Assembly: GCA_947493945.1 (NCBI GenBank)
Contig: CANLSR010000003.1
Location: forward strand, 186,001 to 250,000
Origin: an uncultured bacterium
Lineage (GTDB): Bacteria > Bacteroidota > Rhodothermia > Rhodothermales > Rubricoccaceae
Direction of reading: 5' to 3'
DNA length: 64,000 nucleotides
Part shown: piece by piece, positions 1,427 to 7,379 of the stretch
Numbering within the stretch: position 1 is the stretch's first letter
Layout of the letters: every line of letters starts with the position of its first letter
Position numbers and translations under genes: made by a program
Notes under the pieces: generated by a model
What the model was told of the DNA's origin: nothing
Database searches by the model: none
Seen by the model: only the letters and a program-made list of their open reading frames with translations

Positions 1427-2287
1427 CTACTTGTAGAGAATCTCGATGGGCTGGGTGGGCGGCTGCTCCGCCGTGCGCCGCTCGACCTCGGCGGCGGTGC
1501 GCTGGGCCATCTCCACGAAGGCCTGGGCCGACGCGCTCTCGGGCTCGGCCAGCACGATGGGCGTGCCCTGGTCGCCGGCCTCGCGCGTGGCCTGCTCGAT
1601 GGGCACCGCGCCCAGCACCGGCACGTCGAGCTCGGCCGCCAGCCGCTGGGCGCCGCCCTCACCGAACAGGTAGTACTTGCGGTCGGGCAGGTCGGGCGGC
1701 GTAAAGTAAGCCATGTTCTCGACCACGCCCAGGACGGGCACGTGGACGTTCTCGAACATCTTGACCGCCTTGCGCGCGTCCGCCAGCGCCACGTCCTGAG
1801 GCGTCGAGACGACCACGGCGCCCGTCAGCGGGACCGTCTGGACGATGGTGAGCTGGATGTCGCCCGTGCCCGGCGGCAGGTCCAGCACCAACGTGTCGAG
1901 CTCGCCCCAGGCGGCCTGGCCCAAGAACTGGCGGACGGCGCTGGACACCATCGGCCCGCGCCAGATCACCGCTCGCGCGTCGTCCACCAGGAAGCCCATC
2001 GACAGCAGCTTGACGCCGTAGCGCATCAGCGGCACGATCTGGCGGCCCTCGTTGACGCGCGGCTTCTCGTCGGCCGGCACGCCGAACATGAGCGGCACGG
2101 ACGGGCCGTAGACGTCGGCGTCGAGCAGCCCTACCTTCTGGCCGCTCTGGGCGAGCGCGACGGCCAGGTTGGCGGCGACGGTGCTTTTGCCCACGCCGCC
2201 CTTACCGCTGGCGACGGCCACGAAGGTTTTCACGTTTCCTAGTCCGGCGGGGGCCTGGGGACGGGGCGTGTCGGGAGAGTCTGCCAT
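1427..2287 (-). CDS. mrp: Mrp/ApbC-type Fe-S cluster carrier P-loop ATPase
   Basis: A 286-residue ATPase with the deviant Walker A SGKGGVGKST at residues 27-36, LLDADVYGPSVPLMFG, and the DLPPGTGD switch region, all typical of Mrp/NBP35 proteins that load Fe-S clusters onto targets. It is the short form: the N-terminal MIP18/DUF59 domain of longer Mrp proteins is absent. The CxxC of longer family members is not seen; the equivalent region reads VVENMAYFTPPDLPDRKYYLFGEGG, so metal binding by the family dimer motif is doubtful. The ORF track runs to a GTG at 2401, but the ATG at 2287 removes a Pro-rich unconserved leader. It lies upstream of the Nfu gene and is divergent from the BlaI-type gene. 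Confidence 0.85.
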   Translation of the reverse strand: MADSPDTPRPQAPAGLGNVKTFVAVASGKGGVGKSTVAANLAVALAQSGQKVGLLDADVYGPSVPLMFGVPADEKPRVNEGRQIVPLMRYGVKLLSMGFLVDDARAVIWRGPMVSSAVRQFLGQAAWGELDTLVLDLPPGTGDIQLTIVQTVPLTGAVVVSTPQDVALADARKAVKMFENVHVPVLGVVENMAYFTPPDLPDRKYYLFGEGGAQRLAAELDVPVLGAVPIEQATREAGDQGTPIVLAEPESASAQAFVEMAQRTAAEVERRTAEQPPTQPIEILYK

Positions 2288-2387
2288 CGGAGTGGGGGCC
2301 TGGGCGGTGGGGACCCGAGCGTGAGGCGCGGGTTCCGGGTTCGCACGGTCTGAACGGCGGACGGAAACGGGCAGAGGATCGACGTGC

Positions 2388-2400
2388 TGTTTTTTTAACA
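2388..2400. promoter_or_regulatory. Possible third BlaI-type operator half-palindrome
   Basis: TGTT-TTTTT-AACA is an AT-rich inverted repeat in the divergent mrp/repressor gap, about 50 bp from the clear operator-like repeat at 2438. It has weaker symmetry than the sites at 2438 and 4638. Confidence 0.3.
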
Positions 2401-2406
2401 CACCTC

Positions 2407-2435
2407 TTGACAGCCAGCCGGCCGAGCCCTACCAT
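2407..2435 (+). promoter_or_regulatory. Candidate promoter of the blaI-like/M56 operon
   Basis: TTGACA, then 17 bp, then TACCAT. The first hexamer is a perfect sigma-70 -35 match and the spacing is ideal. The predicted start point falls in the inverted repeat at 2438-2451, which suits autorepression. Confidence 0.45.
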
Positions 2436-2437
2436 CC

Positions 2438-2451
2438 GTTAAGTTTTTAAC
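2438..2451. promoter_or_regulatory. Putative operator (GTTAA-N4-TTAAC)
   Basis: A perfect 5-bp inverted repeat, GTTAAGTTTTTAAC, overlaps the predicted transcription start, 8 bp before the ATG of the BlaI-type repressor. A site with the same architecture (GCTAA-N4-TTAGC) precedes the DUF5916 gene at 4638. Both are AT-rich islands in very GC-rich DNA. Confidence 0.55.
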
Positions 2452-2458
2452 ACACCCC

Positions 2459-2836
2459 ATGCCCCTCCGCCTCAGCCGCCGCGAGCGAGAAATCCTCGAC
2501 GTGCTCCACCGCCTGGGCACCGCCTCGGCAGCCGACGTCCGCGCGGCGCTCGACGACCCGCCCAGCGACTCCGCCGTCCGCACCCACCTCCGGATCCTGG
2601 AGGAGAAGGGCCACGCGCGCCACGAGCAGGACGGTCCGCGCTACGTGTACCTGCCGGTCCAGAGCCGCGAGGTCGCCGGCCGCAGCGCCCTGCGCCACCT
2701 GACCCAGACGTTTTTCGGCGGCGCCCCCGAACGCGCCGTCGCGGCCCTATTAGACGAGGCCTCGGCCGACCTGTCGGACGACGACCTCGACCGGTTGGAC
2801 GACCTGATCCGGCGCGCCCGCGCCCAGGGACGATGA
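2459..2836 (+). CDS. BlaI/MecI/CopY-family transcriptional repressor
   Basis: A 125-residue winged-helix repressor. Residues 4-60 (LSRREREILDVLHRLGTASAADVRAALDD, SAVRTHLRILEEKGHARHEQ) form the family's helix-turn-helix and wing, and YVYLPVQSREVAGRSAL leads into the C-terminal dimerisation helices. BlaI-type proteins repress their own operon and target genes until a partner M56 membrane protease inactivates them, or, for CopY, until metal binds. The gene overlaps the M56 gene by ATGA, so the two are translationally coupled. An inverted repeat just upstream fits autoregulation. No beta-lactamase gene is nearby, so the signal is probably not an antibiotic. Confidence 0.92.
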   Translation: MPLRLSRREREILDVLHRLGTASAADVRAALDDPPSDSAVRTHLRILEEKGHARHEQDGPRYVYLPVQSREVAGRSALRHLTQTFFGGAPERAVAALLDEASADLSDDDLDRLDDLIRRARAQGR

Positions 2837-4587
2837 CTGCGCTCCTGACCGTCGCCGTCAAGGGCCTGGTCGTGCTCGGAGCGGCGGCATTGGTCGCGCG
2901 CGTGCTGCGCGGCGCCTCGGCTTCGACGCGGCATGGACTCTGGGCAGTCGCGTTCGCCGCGCTCGCACTGCTGCCCGTGCTGGAGGCAACCGGCCCGCGC
3001 TGGCCCGTCGGCGTGTGGCCCGCGGCAGAGCCCGACGTCGACGTGGTGTACGACTATGCAGAGGGCGGCATCGTCGTCGGCGACGGGCACATCTACGGCA
3101 TGGACGGCATGGAACTCCATCACGAGTTCAGCTTGGAGACCAGCGACCACACGGAGCACGACTCCTACCTGATGTCGGAGGACGGCTACGGCATAGAGAT
3201 AGAGCACAGCTACGACACGGAGACGTCTGTGTCCTCCGCACTCGCCTTTGCAGACGAGTGGCCTACCACTCACTGGTCGCCGTCGGCGCTGATGCGCACC
3301 GCTAGTCGGGCGGGCGGATGGCTGGCGGCCCTGTGGGGCGCCGGCGCGCTGGCGGTCGCGCTGGGGTGGCTGGCGGCGCTGCTCGCGGCGCGGCGCGTCG
3401 TGGTCGGGGCTCGGCCGGAGGCCGACGACGAGTGGGCGGTTCAGGCCGAGCGCGCCCGCCGGCTGGTCGGGTTGCCGGCGCCTGTGCCCCTGCTCCGCTC
3501 CGACGCGCTCGACGTGCCCGTGGCCTGGGGATGGGGCCGGGGCGCCGTCGTGCTCCCCACCAGCGCCGACGCCTGGGACGACGACCAGCGCGAGGCCGTG
3601 CTGCTCCACGAGATGGCGCACCTGGCGCGGCGCGACGCCTGGAGCCAGTCCGTCGCCCAGGTCGCCCTCGCCCTCCACTGGTTCAACCCGCTGGCGTGGT
3701 GGGGCTACCGCCGCTTCCTCGACGCTCGGGAGCACGCCTGCGACGACGCCGTGCTCCGGAACGGCGCCCGCCCTTCGACCTACGCCGAGCACCTGGTGAG
3801 CGTGGCCCGGGCCGTCCGCCGCGACCGGCTGGCCCTGGCCGGCCTGGCGCCGATGGCGCGGACGGCGCCCGTCCAGGCGCGCGTGGTCTCCATCCTCGAC
3901 CCCGCCCGCGTGCGCGGACGGATGGGCCGCGTCTCGGGCGCGGCGCTCGTGCTGCTGGCGGCCGGCGTGCTCGCGCCGCTGGCGGCCCTCCAGCCCGTGG
4001 CCCAGACGCCGCCAGCGCCGGCGGCCCCGCTCCCCGACTGGACGGCCGTCGCCGACACGCTGGACGAGCTCTACCGCGTCGAGCCCGCGCCAGAGCCCCA
4101 CCTGGACGTTTGGGCCGAGGTGGAGGACGCCATCCTAGAGTCTGCCGAGGCCATCGACGAGGTGGCCCAGGAGATGGAGACGACCGAGCACTCGGCCCGT
4201 GCAGCGGAGGTGCACGTGGGAGAAGTCGAACCGCTCCGCCCGGGCGTCGACCCCGACGTCGTGGACGGCGTGAGCGCCGAGATCCGCAGCGCCATCGACG
4301 GCGACATCGAGAACGCGCGTGCCGACATCCGCCGCGCCATCCGCGAGTTGGAGCGGCTGGACGGCCCGGCCGCGCGCCTCCGCATCGACGCGCTCCGCCA
4401 GGCCGAATGGGGGCTGGCCCAGATCGACCGCCAGGCCCTCCGCGAGAACGCCCGCGCCGAGGCCCGACGCGCGCTCGACCGGGTCCGCCAGCGGCCGGCG
4501 CCCAGCGTGGCCGAGCCGCCGGCCCCGCCCGCCCCGCCCCGCCCCCACGCGCCGGCGGCTGCACCGGCCGACGGCGGGCGACGGTGA
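2833..4587 (+). CDS. BlaR1/MecR1-type M56 membrane metallopeptidase with acidic His-rich loop
   Basis: A 584-residue integral membrane protease. Hydrophobic segments lie near residues 5-25, 35-53, 155-180 and 370-388. The zinc motif HEMAH is at residues 259-263 (LLHEMAHLARRDAW), with the downstream EHACDDAVL carrying the third ligand. Between the second and third membrane segments, about residues 65-140, is an unusual loop very rich in His, Asp, Glu and Tyr (HIYGMDGMELHHEF, SDHTEHDSY, IEIEHSYDTE) that could bind metal. The C-terminal 190 residues are a charged helical domain ending in a Pro/Ala tail, not the penicillin-binding sensor domain of BlaR1. It is coupled to the BlaI-type gene by a 4-bp overlap and is presumed to cleave or trigger loss of that repressor. 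Confidence 0.88.
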   Translation: MTALLTVAVKGLVVLGAAALVARVLRGASASTRHGLWAVAFAALALLPVLEATGPRWPVGVWPAAEPDVDVVYDYAEGGIVVGDGHIYGMDGMELHHEFSLETSDHTEHDSYLMSEDGYGIEIEHSYDTETSVSSALAFADEWPTTHWSPSALMRTASRAGGWLAALWGAGALAVALGWLAALLAARRVVVGARPEADDEWAVQAERARRLVGLPAPVPLLRSDALDVPVAWGWGRGAVVLPTSADAWDDDQREAVLLHEMAHLARRDAWSQSVAQVALALHWFNPLAWWGYRRFLDAREHACDDAVLRNGARPSTYAEHLVSVARAVRRDRLALAGLAPMARTAPVQARVVSILDPARVRGRMGRVSGAALVLLAAGVLAPLAALQPVAQTPPAPAAPLPDWTAVADTLDELYRVEPAPEPHLDVWAEVEDAILESAEAIDEVAQEMETTEHSARAAEVHVGEVEPLRPGVDPDVVDGVSAEIRSAIDGDIENARADIRRAIRELERLDGPAARLRIDALRQAEWGLAQIDRQALRENARAEARRALDRVRQRPAPSVAEPPAPPAPPRPHAPAAAPADGGRR

Positions 4588-4637
4588 GGCGTTCGGGCCG
4601 CGCCGGACGGTGAACGGGGGAGTGGCACAGGGAAGAT

Positions 4638-4651
4638 GCTAAATTTTTAGC
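4638..4651. promoter_or_regulatory. Putative operator upstream of the DUF5916 gene (GCTAA-N4-TTAGC)
   Basis: GCTAAATTTTTAGC has perfect 5-bp arms with a 4-nt spacer, the same geometry as the site before the BlaI-type gene. It lies 59 bp before the DUF5916 start and suggests that gene belongs to the same regulon. Confidence 0.5.
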
Positions 4652-4709
4652 ACTCGCTGTAACCATCGGGCCCCGCCATCCGTGAGGAGGGCGTCTTCTC
4701 CGCCCTACC

Positions 4710-7379
4710 ATGCGCTCGCTCTCCCTGCTGGCCTTCGCCCTCGCCGCACTGCTCGCCTCCCAGGCACACGCCCAGCCCACGCTGGCGGCCCACGCCGTCG
4801 AGGCCGGAGCCGTCCAACTGGACGGCGTCCTGGACGAGGCGGCCTGGGGCCAGGCCGGCGCCGCCGGCGACTTCGTCCAGCAGCGGCCCGACGCCGGGGC
4901 CGCCGCCTCGGAGCCGACGACCGCCGAGGTGCTCTACGACGGCTCGGCGATCTACGTCGGGATGCGGATGGCCGACAGCCAGCCGGGCCAGATCGACGCC
5001 CGCCTGGGCCGGCGCGACGCCTACCTGGAGACCGACTGGGCCTCGGTCATGATCGACTCGTACAACGACGACCGGACGGCCTTCATGTTCAGGGTCAACC
5101 CGGCCGGCGTCCGCGTCGACCGGCTGCTGTTCGACGACGTCGACGAGGACCAGTCGTGGGACGCCGTCTGGGAGGTGGCGACCACGCGCGACGACCGGGG
5201 CTGGACGGCCGAGTTCCGGATCCCGCTCAGCCAGCTCCGCTTCTCCAGCGGCGCCGGCGCCCAGACCTGGGGCCTCAACTTCCAGCGGATCCACTTCCGC
5301 ACCGGCGAGACGTCCTACTGGGCGCCCGTCCTGCCCTCCGAGCAAGGCCTGGTGAGCCGGTTCGGCGCGCTGGCGGATCTCCGCGGGCTCCGGCCGCCCC
5401 GCCAGCTCGAGGTCGTGCCCTACCTCGCGGCCTCGGTCGAGCGCGCGCCGGGCGACGCCGCCGACCCGTTCTACCGCGCGACCGAGGCCTCGCCCCGCCT
5501 CGGCGCCGACCTCAAGTACGGCCTGTCGTCGGACCTGACGCTGACGGCGACCGTCAACCCGGACTTTGGCCAGGTCGAGGCCGACCCGGCCCAGGTCAAC
5601 CTGGGCGGCTTCGAGCTGTTCTTCCAAGAGCGCCGGCCGTTCTTCGTCGAGGGGACCGACGTGTTCTCCATGGAGCCCCGCCGCTACTTCTCCAACGGCC
5701 GGCCGGACCTGCTCTACACCCGGCGGATCGGCCGCGCCCCGCAGCGCGGCTCGTTCGTGCCGGACGAGGCGGAGCAGGCCGCCGGCGACAACGGGACGGT
5801 CTACACCGACGCCCCCCAGCAGAGCACCATCCTGGGCGCGGCCAAGCTCTCCGGCCGTGTGGGCCGGGTCTCGTTCGGCGTGCTCAACGCCGTGACCGGC
5901 CCCGAGTACGGCTCGTTCCAGGCCCTCGACCCCGACGAGCGGATGGTGCTGAGCGACCGGGCGCTCATCGAGCCGACCACGAACTACGCCGTCGGCCGCG
6001 CCCGGGCTACGTTCGGCCGGACCTTGGTCGGGGGGCTGGCGACGTCGGTCGTCCGCAGCACGGCCGACGCGGCCATCGGGGACCTGCTGCCCGCCCAGGC
6101 GACGGTCGCCGGGCTCGACGTGGAGCACCCGTTCGGCGACTGGATCGTGAACGGGCAGGTGGCCGGCAGCGTGGTCACCGGCAGCGAGAGGGCCCTCGAA
6201 CGCGTCCAGCGCGCCTTCCCCCGCCTCTACCAACGCCCCGACGCCGGCCACCTGACGCTGGACACCACGCGGACGGCGCTGGCTGGCTTTACCGGGGAGG
6301 CCAACCTGCTCAAGACGGCGGGGGAGCACTGGCTGGTCGGGGTCCACGCCAACGCCACGTCGCCGGGCTTCGACTCGAACGGGCTCGGCTTCCAGTCCCG
6401 CGCCGACCAGGTCGGCGGCGGCACGGTCGTGATCTACAACCAGAACCAGCCGCAGGGGGCGTTCCAGCGGTGGGGGGCCAACGTGTTCGGGGGCCTGGCC
6501 TGGAACTTCGCGGGCGACCGCACCAACACGTTTGTCGGTGGCAACGTGGACGGCACGTTCCGCAACTTCTGGGGCTTCGGCGTCAACGGCAACGCCGGCA
6601 CCCGCACGGTCGACGACCGGGGCACGCGCGGCGGCCCGCTGATGACGGACCCGGCCGGCGGGCGCCTCAACCTCAACGCCTGGACCGACGACCGGAAGGC
6701 GGTCTCGGGCTACGCCTGGACCGGCGCCAGCCGCGACGAGCTGGGCGGCTGGTTCCACGGCGCCGAGCTCGGCGTCGAGGTCCGGCCCTCGTCGTCGCTG
6801 TCGATCGACCTGTCGCCCGAGGTCGGCTTCTCGCACGACGTCCGCCAGTACGTCGGCGCCTTCGACGCGCCGGGCCTGGACGCCACGTTCGGCCGGCGCT
6901 ACGTGTTCGGCACGATCGAGCAGACGACGGTCTCGCTCAACGCCCGGCTCAACTGGACGTTCACGCCCACGCTGTCGCTCCAGACCTACCTCCGCCCGTT
7001 CGTGTCGCGGGGCGACTACACCTCGTTCCGCCAGCTCACCGAGCCCGGCCAGCTCGACCTGCCGGTCTACGGCCAGGGCGCCGGCTCCATCGAGACCCTG
7101 ACGAACGGCGACGGCGCGGTCTCGTACCGCGTGACCGGCGACGACGGCGGCACGGCCGAGTTCGACGACCCCAGCTTTACCGTCCGGGCGCTCCAGGGCA
7201 ACGCGGTGCTGCGCTGGGAGTACCGGCCGGGCTCGGCGTTGTTCGTGGTCTGGCAGCAGCAGCGCAACGGGTTCGAGCCCGACGGCGCGCTGCGGTTCGG
7301 CCGCGACGTGCGCGGGATCTTCCGCGACACGCCGACGAACGTGTTCCTGGTCAAGCTGAGCTACTGGCTGGGCGGGTGA
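4710..7379 (+). CDS. CBM9-domain / DUF5916 outer-membrane beta-barrel protein
   Basis: An 889-residue exported protein with a clear signal peptide (MRSLSLLAFALAALLASQAHA). Residues about 25-215 form a CBM9-like beta-sandwich (VQLDGVLDEAAWGQAG, ending GLNFQRIHFRTGETSYWAP). The rest has the DUF5916 signature NPDFGQVEADPAQVNLGGFE followed by FFQERRPFFVEGTDVF, then alternating beta-strands ending LVKLSYWLGG. DUF5916 proteins are common in Bacteroidota and Rhodothermota and are thought to be outer-membrane proteins; their substrate is unknown to me. It is 122 bp downstream of the M56 gene, with its own operator-like repeat, so it may be the target of the BlaI/M56 pair. Confidence 0.85.
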   Translation: MRSLSLLAFALAALLASQAHAQPTLAAHAVEAGAVQLDGVLDEAAWGQAGAAGDFVQQRPDAGAAASEPTTAEVLYDGSAIYVGMRMADSQPGQIDARLGRRDAYLETDWASVMIDSYNDDRTAFMFRVNPAGVRVDRLLFDDVDEDQSWDAVWEVATTRDDRGWTAEFRIPLSQLRFSSGAGAQTWGLNFQRIHFRTGETSYWAPVLPSEQGLVSRFGALADLRGLRPPRQLEVVPYLAASVERAPGDAADPFYRATEASPRLGADLKYGLSSDLTLTATVNPDFGQVEADPAQVNLGGFELFFQERRPFFVEGTDVFSMEPRRYFSNGRPDLLYTRRIGRAPQRGSFVPDEAEQAAGDNGTVYTDAPQQSTILGAAKLSGRVGRVSFGVLNAVTGPEYGSFQALDPDERMVLSDRALIEPTTNYAVGRARATFGRTLVGGLATSVVRSTADAAIGDLLPAQATVAGLDVEHPFGDWIVNGQVAGSVVTGSERALERVQRAFPRLYQRPDAGHLTLDTTRTALAGFTGEANLLKTAGEHWLVGVHANATSPGFDSNGLGFQSRADQVGGGTVVIYNQNQPQGAFQRWGANVFGGLAWNFAGDRTNTFVGGNVDGTFRNFWGFGVNGNAGTRTVDDRGTRGGPLMTDPAGGRLNLNAWTDDRKAVSGYAWTGASRDELGGWFHGAELGVEVRPSSSLSIDLSPEVGFSHDVRQYVGAFDAPGLDATFGRRYVFGTIEQTTVSLNARLNWTFTPTLSLQTYLRPFVSRGDYTSFRQLTEPGQLDLPVYGQGAGSIETLTNGDGAVSYRVTGDDGGTAEFDDPSFTVRALQGNAVLRWEYRPGSALFVVWQQQRNGFEPDGALRFGRDVRGIFRDTPTNVFLVKLSYWLGG

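Follow-up and report, generated by a model that had tools for sequence, protein, structure and literature searches.

Repressor–protease pairs of the BlaI/BlaR1 type are known mainly from beta-lactam resistance. The locus described here, in a 64,000-nucleotide stretch of DNA (the window), raises the question of what such a pair controls when the gene next to it encodes a predicted outer-membrane protein of the DUF5916 family. An earlier reading of the sequence alone (the sequence-only reading) had interpreted two dyads at the locus as belonging to a BlaI/M56 regulon that includes DUF5916, and this interpretation is supported by the analysis below. An mrp-like gene on the minus strand is followed by blaI, M56 and DUF5916, all on the plus strand, with these features:

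1427–2401, minus strand: mrp/apbC-like ORF, the divergent neighbour of blaI (ORF listing)
2385–2400, plus strand: predicted operator O1, TGCTGTTTTTTTAACA, a pattern match with 6 bp between it and the −35 hexamer
2407–2435, plus strand: sigma-70-like promoter of blaI–M56, TTGACA-17-TACCAT (from the sequence)
2437–2452, plus strand: predicted operator O2, CGTTAAGTTTTTAACA, beginning 2 bp past the −10 hexamer
2459–2836, plus strand: blaI-type repressor gene, 125 aa (Pfam Penicillinase_R, 1.5e-24)
2833–4587, plus strand: M56 membrane metalloprotease gene, 584 aa, with a HEMAH motif (Pfam Peptidase_M56, 8.3e-30)
4637–4652, plus strand: predicted DUF5916 operator, TGCTAAATTTTTAGCA, an exact TGCTA-N6-TAGCA found nowhere else in the genome
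4659–4683, plus strand: GTAAC-N17-CGT element, 6 bp after the DUF5916 operator
4710–7379, plus strand: DUF5916 gene, 889 aa (Pfam DUF5916, 1.3e-61, plus CBM9_1, 2e-8)

These Pfam matches bear out the three gene calls of the sequence-only reading. The blaI and M56 genes overlap by 4 bp. The promoter reported beside blaI is present, its hexamers TTGACA (2407–2412) and TACCAT (2430–2435) separated by a 17-bp spacer, and a TTGAC-17-TA..T counterpart is found in same-genus and same-family relatives. It is flanked by O1 and O2, which lie 52 bp apart, and we infer that O2 spans the transcription start of blaI–M56. The mrp/apbC-like ORF as listed, from 2401, adjoins O1; its family alignment begins much later, and a true start near 2286 appears likelier than 2401. 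O1 could affect this divergent gene.

The two dyads first noted, GTTAAGTTTTTAAC at 2438–2451 and GCTAAATTTTTAGC at 4638–4651, lie where they were reported, the latter in front of the DUF5916 gene as claimed, and are the only GYTAA-N4-TTARC dyads in the whole 3,771,385-base genome. The dyads are confirmed as described; their number is not, because a third, weaker one exists at 2385–2400 (O1). With up to three mismatches allowed, TGYTAAANNTTTARCA is found three times in the window against 0.08 expected, and none of the shuffles reached three. As a first pattern, TGYTAAANNTTTARCA proved too strict in its centre: TGCTA and TAGCA arms around a free AT-rich N6 fit better, and the generalised operator is TGCTA-N6-TAGCA. 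A genome-wide search with the degenerate pattern YGYKRNNWWTTTARCA returned exactly three places, all at the blaI–M56–DUF5916 locus, and the reversed pattern, scanned genome-wide as a control, gave no match. Since YGYKRNNWWTTTARCA was devised after the three sites had been seen, the evidence lies in its exclusiveness to the locus and not in the matches themselves; the YGYK and composite patterns were likewise devised after viewing sites of the same family. At up to two mismatches TGCTA-N6-TAGCA is uninformative in this GC-rich genome, with 207 matches, mostly GC-centred, against a larger number (1292) for the reversed control.

The test set beforehand for the claim was whether relatives that share the operon also keep the dyads, and they do. 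Among 114 genomes of the order, 45 contain a BlaI orthologue scoring at least 100 bits, cleanly separated from the next matches at 65 bits or less. TGCTA-N6-TAGCA, with up to two mismatches over its ten fixed positions, is present at 38 of 46 blaI orthologue promoters of the order. Paired operators are common at these orthologues, spaced 52–62 bp in 24 of 27 pairs and 19 bp in the other three, and the upstream copy, corresponding to O1, often ends 6–8 bp before a TTGAC-like hexamer. The 19-bp pairs come from one family (L137, L140, L150). Across the 114 genomes, motif counts follow the presence of the orthologue (mean 2.9 with, 0.64 without; Mann–Whitney 4e-7), whereas counts of the reversed pattern show no difference (0.18). 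The synteny of blaI, M56 and DUF5916 extends over three families of the order. At five loci (L134, L135, L138, L148, L155), O2 is followed upstream of blaI by TGTAAC-N16..17-CGTA, a sequence that suggests a second, ECF-like promoter of blaI.

The same arrangement is found in other phyla. In 76 blaI relatives from Acidobacteriota, Gemmatimonadota, Planctomycetota, Verrucomicrobiota, Armatimonadota and others, the dyad occurs within 180 bp upstream in exact form in 48 and with at most one mismatch in 66. An M56 neighbour was detected at all 80 of 80 cross-phylum loci, and at four Gemmatimonadota loci (L303, L333, L340, L349) DUF5916 lies downstream too.

The repressor itself is a clear member of its family, matching Penicillinase_R (PF03965) over residues 5–118 with 87 bits against a cut-off of 22.6. 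Its sequence has no CXC metal-binding motif and no cysteine at all, it scores 36.7 against the CopY model TIGR02698 (cut-off 122), and phmmer found no match at 0.001 among PDB sequences. A PPSxSAVR..LRILEEKGH stretch is conserved in its orthologues, as are the predicted palindromic operators O1 and O2 at its own promoter. Two further BlaI-family genes are present in the genome, with dyads of their own (TACTATATGATTAGTA and TTCGAACCGAATCGAA), and where the helix region of the locus BlaI has PSDSAVRTHLRILEEKGH, theirs has AYTTVMTVLKNLADKGYL or AYTTVTTVIKNLADKGYL. Given these separate dyads and the different helix region, the motif is most likely that of the locus BlaI. The TACTATATGATTAGTA dyad, found at a paralogue in G000 (C3:115745, L003) and in G006 (L016), has canonical staphylococcal-type arms; paralogues of one genome therefore appear to use operators that differ by one base per arm.

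Residues H259, E260 and H263 of the M56 protease are invariant among 23 aligned proteins. Its predicted model (pLDDT 76, of moderate confidence) matches the BlaR1 cryo-EM structure 8exp (E 5.2e-5, probability 1.00) with a poor overall superposition (TM 0.28); it is the M56 core that resembles BlaR1. A Pfam scan of the 584 residues found the M56 domain and no penicillin-binding domain, which is likewise absent from all nine M56 proteins scanned, and the match to the blaR1_generic model reaches 63.9 bits (cut-off 400). The C-terminal part is helical here; among relatives (L148, L139, L137, L134) it is exchanged for HEAT repeats, DUF4097 or a coiled coil. The DUF5916 protein (PF19313) has a signal-like N-terminus and a CBM9-like domain. 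Its AlphaFold model (mean pLDDT 81.5) combines this domain with a beta-barrel. Foldseek returned low-identity matches of the model to CBM9 structures as well as to TonB receptors, SusC and the barrel of the Mtr complex, and the protein is predicted to be an outer-membrane beta-barrel. The proposal that the target is an outer-membrane gene rather than a beta-lactamase agrees with the missing penicillin-binding domain and with the location of all three sites at the locus: every AT-rich dyad of the YGYKRNNWWTTTARCA type is found here, and thus no beta-lactamase gene elsewhere in the genome carries one.

Is DUF5916 itself linked to the operator? Within the family, a site (up to two mismatches, within 250 bp) precedes 15 of 31 DUF5916 genes but only 3 of 97 control promoters (Fisher 1.2e-8). 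The site-bearing promoters include those of unlinked paralogues, so synteny alone is insufficient as an explanation. Counting against the link, roughly every second DUF5916 gene of the family, including one in this genome, has no site; in G002 and G003 the gene order is kept and no site precedes DUF5916, which is possibly co-transcribed with the operon there; and in G001 and G008, whose assemblies are 88% and 81% complete, sites precede DUF5916 and no BlaI orthologue was detected. At the 15 promoters the operator lies 5–7 bp before GTAAC, mostly exactly 6 (5–6 bp in 13 of 15), with CGT about 15–17 bp further on. Over the 34.7 Mb of nine genomes, the composite TTTARCA-N5..7-GTAAC-N15..17-CGT is matched 15 times and its reversed control never; by coordinates, 13 of the 15 matches precede a DUF5916 gene. 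In G006 (C1:3898859, L404) the gene behind the composite element encodes a secreted protein with GSGSV repeats which, by eye, looks like DUF4097. Judged by its bases, GTAAC-N17-CGT resembles what we take to be the general form of ECF-sigma promoters.

The regulon had been proposed to be small. This holds for the present genome, where it is tiny, and not for its relatives, in which the motif precedes a wider set of envelope genes. Of 56 motif sites, 44 are intergenic with an ORF beginning at most 200 bp downstream, and 3 fall within an ORF; among 20 reversed-pattern sites the corresponding figures are 2 and 18 (ORFs called crudely). The neighbouring genes encode DUF5916 proteins, MacB/FtsX permeases, M23, M28 and DPP IV-type peptidases, OMP_b-brl_3 receptors, DsbD-like, DUF4440 and DUF305 proteins, an amidohydrolase and an M56 protein. 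Regulon membership is a prediction for each gene, and the predicted targets beyond DUF5916 are envelope proteins.

Taken together, we consider it highly probable that BlaI and M56 at this locus form a one-component switch with an outer-membrane protein as its target, the M56 protease cleaving BlaI and thereby derepressing DUF5916. BlaI dimers would bind dyads of the TGCTA-N6-TAGCA type; the two that flank the blaI–M56 promoter would mediate autoregulation, and the one just upstream of the DUF5916 promoter would place that gene under the same control. The protease would sense an envelope signal through extracytoplasmic parts that do not bind penicillin, and its cleavage of BlaI would relieve repression of both blaI–M56 and DUF5916. 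Comparative sequence analysis supports the sites, their conservation, the M56 pairing and the DUF5916 link, while dimer binding, repression and cleavage are inferred from the family, in which BlaI represses and its M56 partner cleaves it (PMC7593790, PMC7253601), with cleavage on induction known from Staphylococcus aureus (PMC7593790).

The position of O2 over the start of blaI fits repression and speaks against activation there. The single DUF5916 operator, at a fixed distance from a −35-like element, fits either. Activators typically work from one site immediately before the −35 while the start is left free, and at DUF5916 the operator keeps a fixed spacing to GTAAC and CGT; where a DUF5916 gene of the family has no operator, GTAAC-N15..18-CGT[CA] is missing too. 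On these grounds BlaI, either intact or after processing, might activate DUF5916 or act with an ECF-type sigma factor. We regard this as unlikely: the ECF promoter reading is one of resemblance and, to our knowledge, characterised BlaI, MecI and CopY proteins are all repressors, with no activator in the family.

With three BlaI-family genes in the genome and a paralogue dyad, TACTATATGATTAGTA, one base per arm from the consensus, one of the paralogues might bind here and the adjacent blaI be incidental; this was considered and rejected as very improbable, since the motif tracks the orthologue of the locus BlaI, with its conserved PPSxSAVR..LRILEEKGH stretch, across the order and other phyla, and the paralogues have their own dyads. 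The base composition of the dyads is AT-rich, and O1 consists largely of a T-tract, which would also fit palindromes or T-tracts that arose by chance and regulate nothing. We rate such an origin as negligible, and conservation contradicts it: in the order and in other phyla the site recurs at blaI, and within the family it recurs at DUF5916, unlinked paralogues included. Genome uniqueness, fixed spacings and the empty reversed controls also stand against it.

The BlaI/M56 switch proposed here resembles staphylococcal BlaI/BlaR1 and MecI/MecR1 in the adjoining repressor and M56 protease genes, the 16-bp dyad and the membrane protein with its HEXXH-bearing M56 core. It differs in the protease, which has no penicillin-binding sensor domain, in the Gram-negative-type envelope and in the predicted target, an outer-membrane protein instead of blaZ or mecA (a beta-lactamase or PBP2a). 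The operator arms differ as well: those of staphylococcal BlaI/MecI are of the TACTA...TAGTA kind, those here TGCTA...TAGCA. A TACA/TGTA core is described for the staphylococcal-type operator (PMC7253601). The CopY/CopR copper repressors, of the same protein family, also have a 16-base operator, RNYKACANNTGTMRNY, and commonly two operators per promoter (67 of 88 promoters; PMC7253601); unlike them, the BlaI here lacks CXC and is paired with a protease instead of serving metal control. BlaI_0696 and BlaI_1845 of Clostridium thermocellum, studied by DAP-seq, are described, in the parts of the report consulted, as having a BlaR1-type partner, autoregulation and two dyads per promoter, with no beta-lactamase named among the targets (PMC8457756). 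The partner and the paired dyads are as at our blaI promoter; by the same parts, the repeats there are GTCTAT inverted repeats, the phylum differs and DUF5916 does not figure. Literature searches on DUF5916, or on BlaI/M56 regulons outside known systems, returned nothing directly relevant, although subscription papers may exist. The system belongs to the BlaI and M56 families and would work like BlaI/BlaR1, with neither a BlaR1-type sensor nor a beta-lactamase target.

A switch of a family known from antibiotic-resistance genes appears here to control outer-membrane proteins. A large BlaI subfamily, present in many genomes with no sign of a beta-lactam role, gains a specific predicted operator, predicted targets and a promoter architecture, and the locus gives a starting point for working out what DUF5916 does. 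More speculatively, and with considerable doubt on our part, this subfamily may be an envelope-homeostasis system across many Gram-negative-type phyla. Its M56 proteases, whose sensors (coiled coil, HEAT, DUF4097) would be interchangeable, would then govern a TGCTA-N6-TAGCA envelope regulon, and BlaI would act at DUF5916 from a fixed place directly before an ECF-type promoter, where it might serve as an activator or a sigma-dependent co-regulator. The locus suggests that the envelope signals sensed by M56 proteases include others besides beta-lactams.
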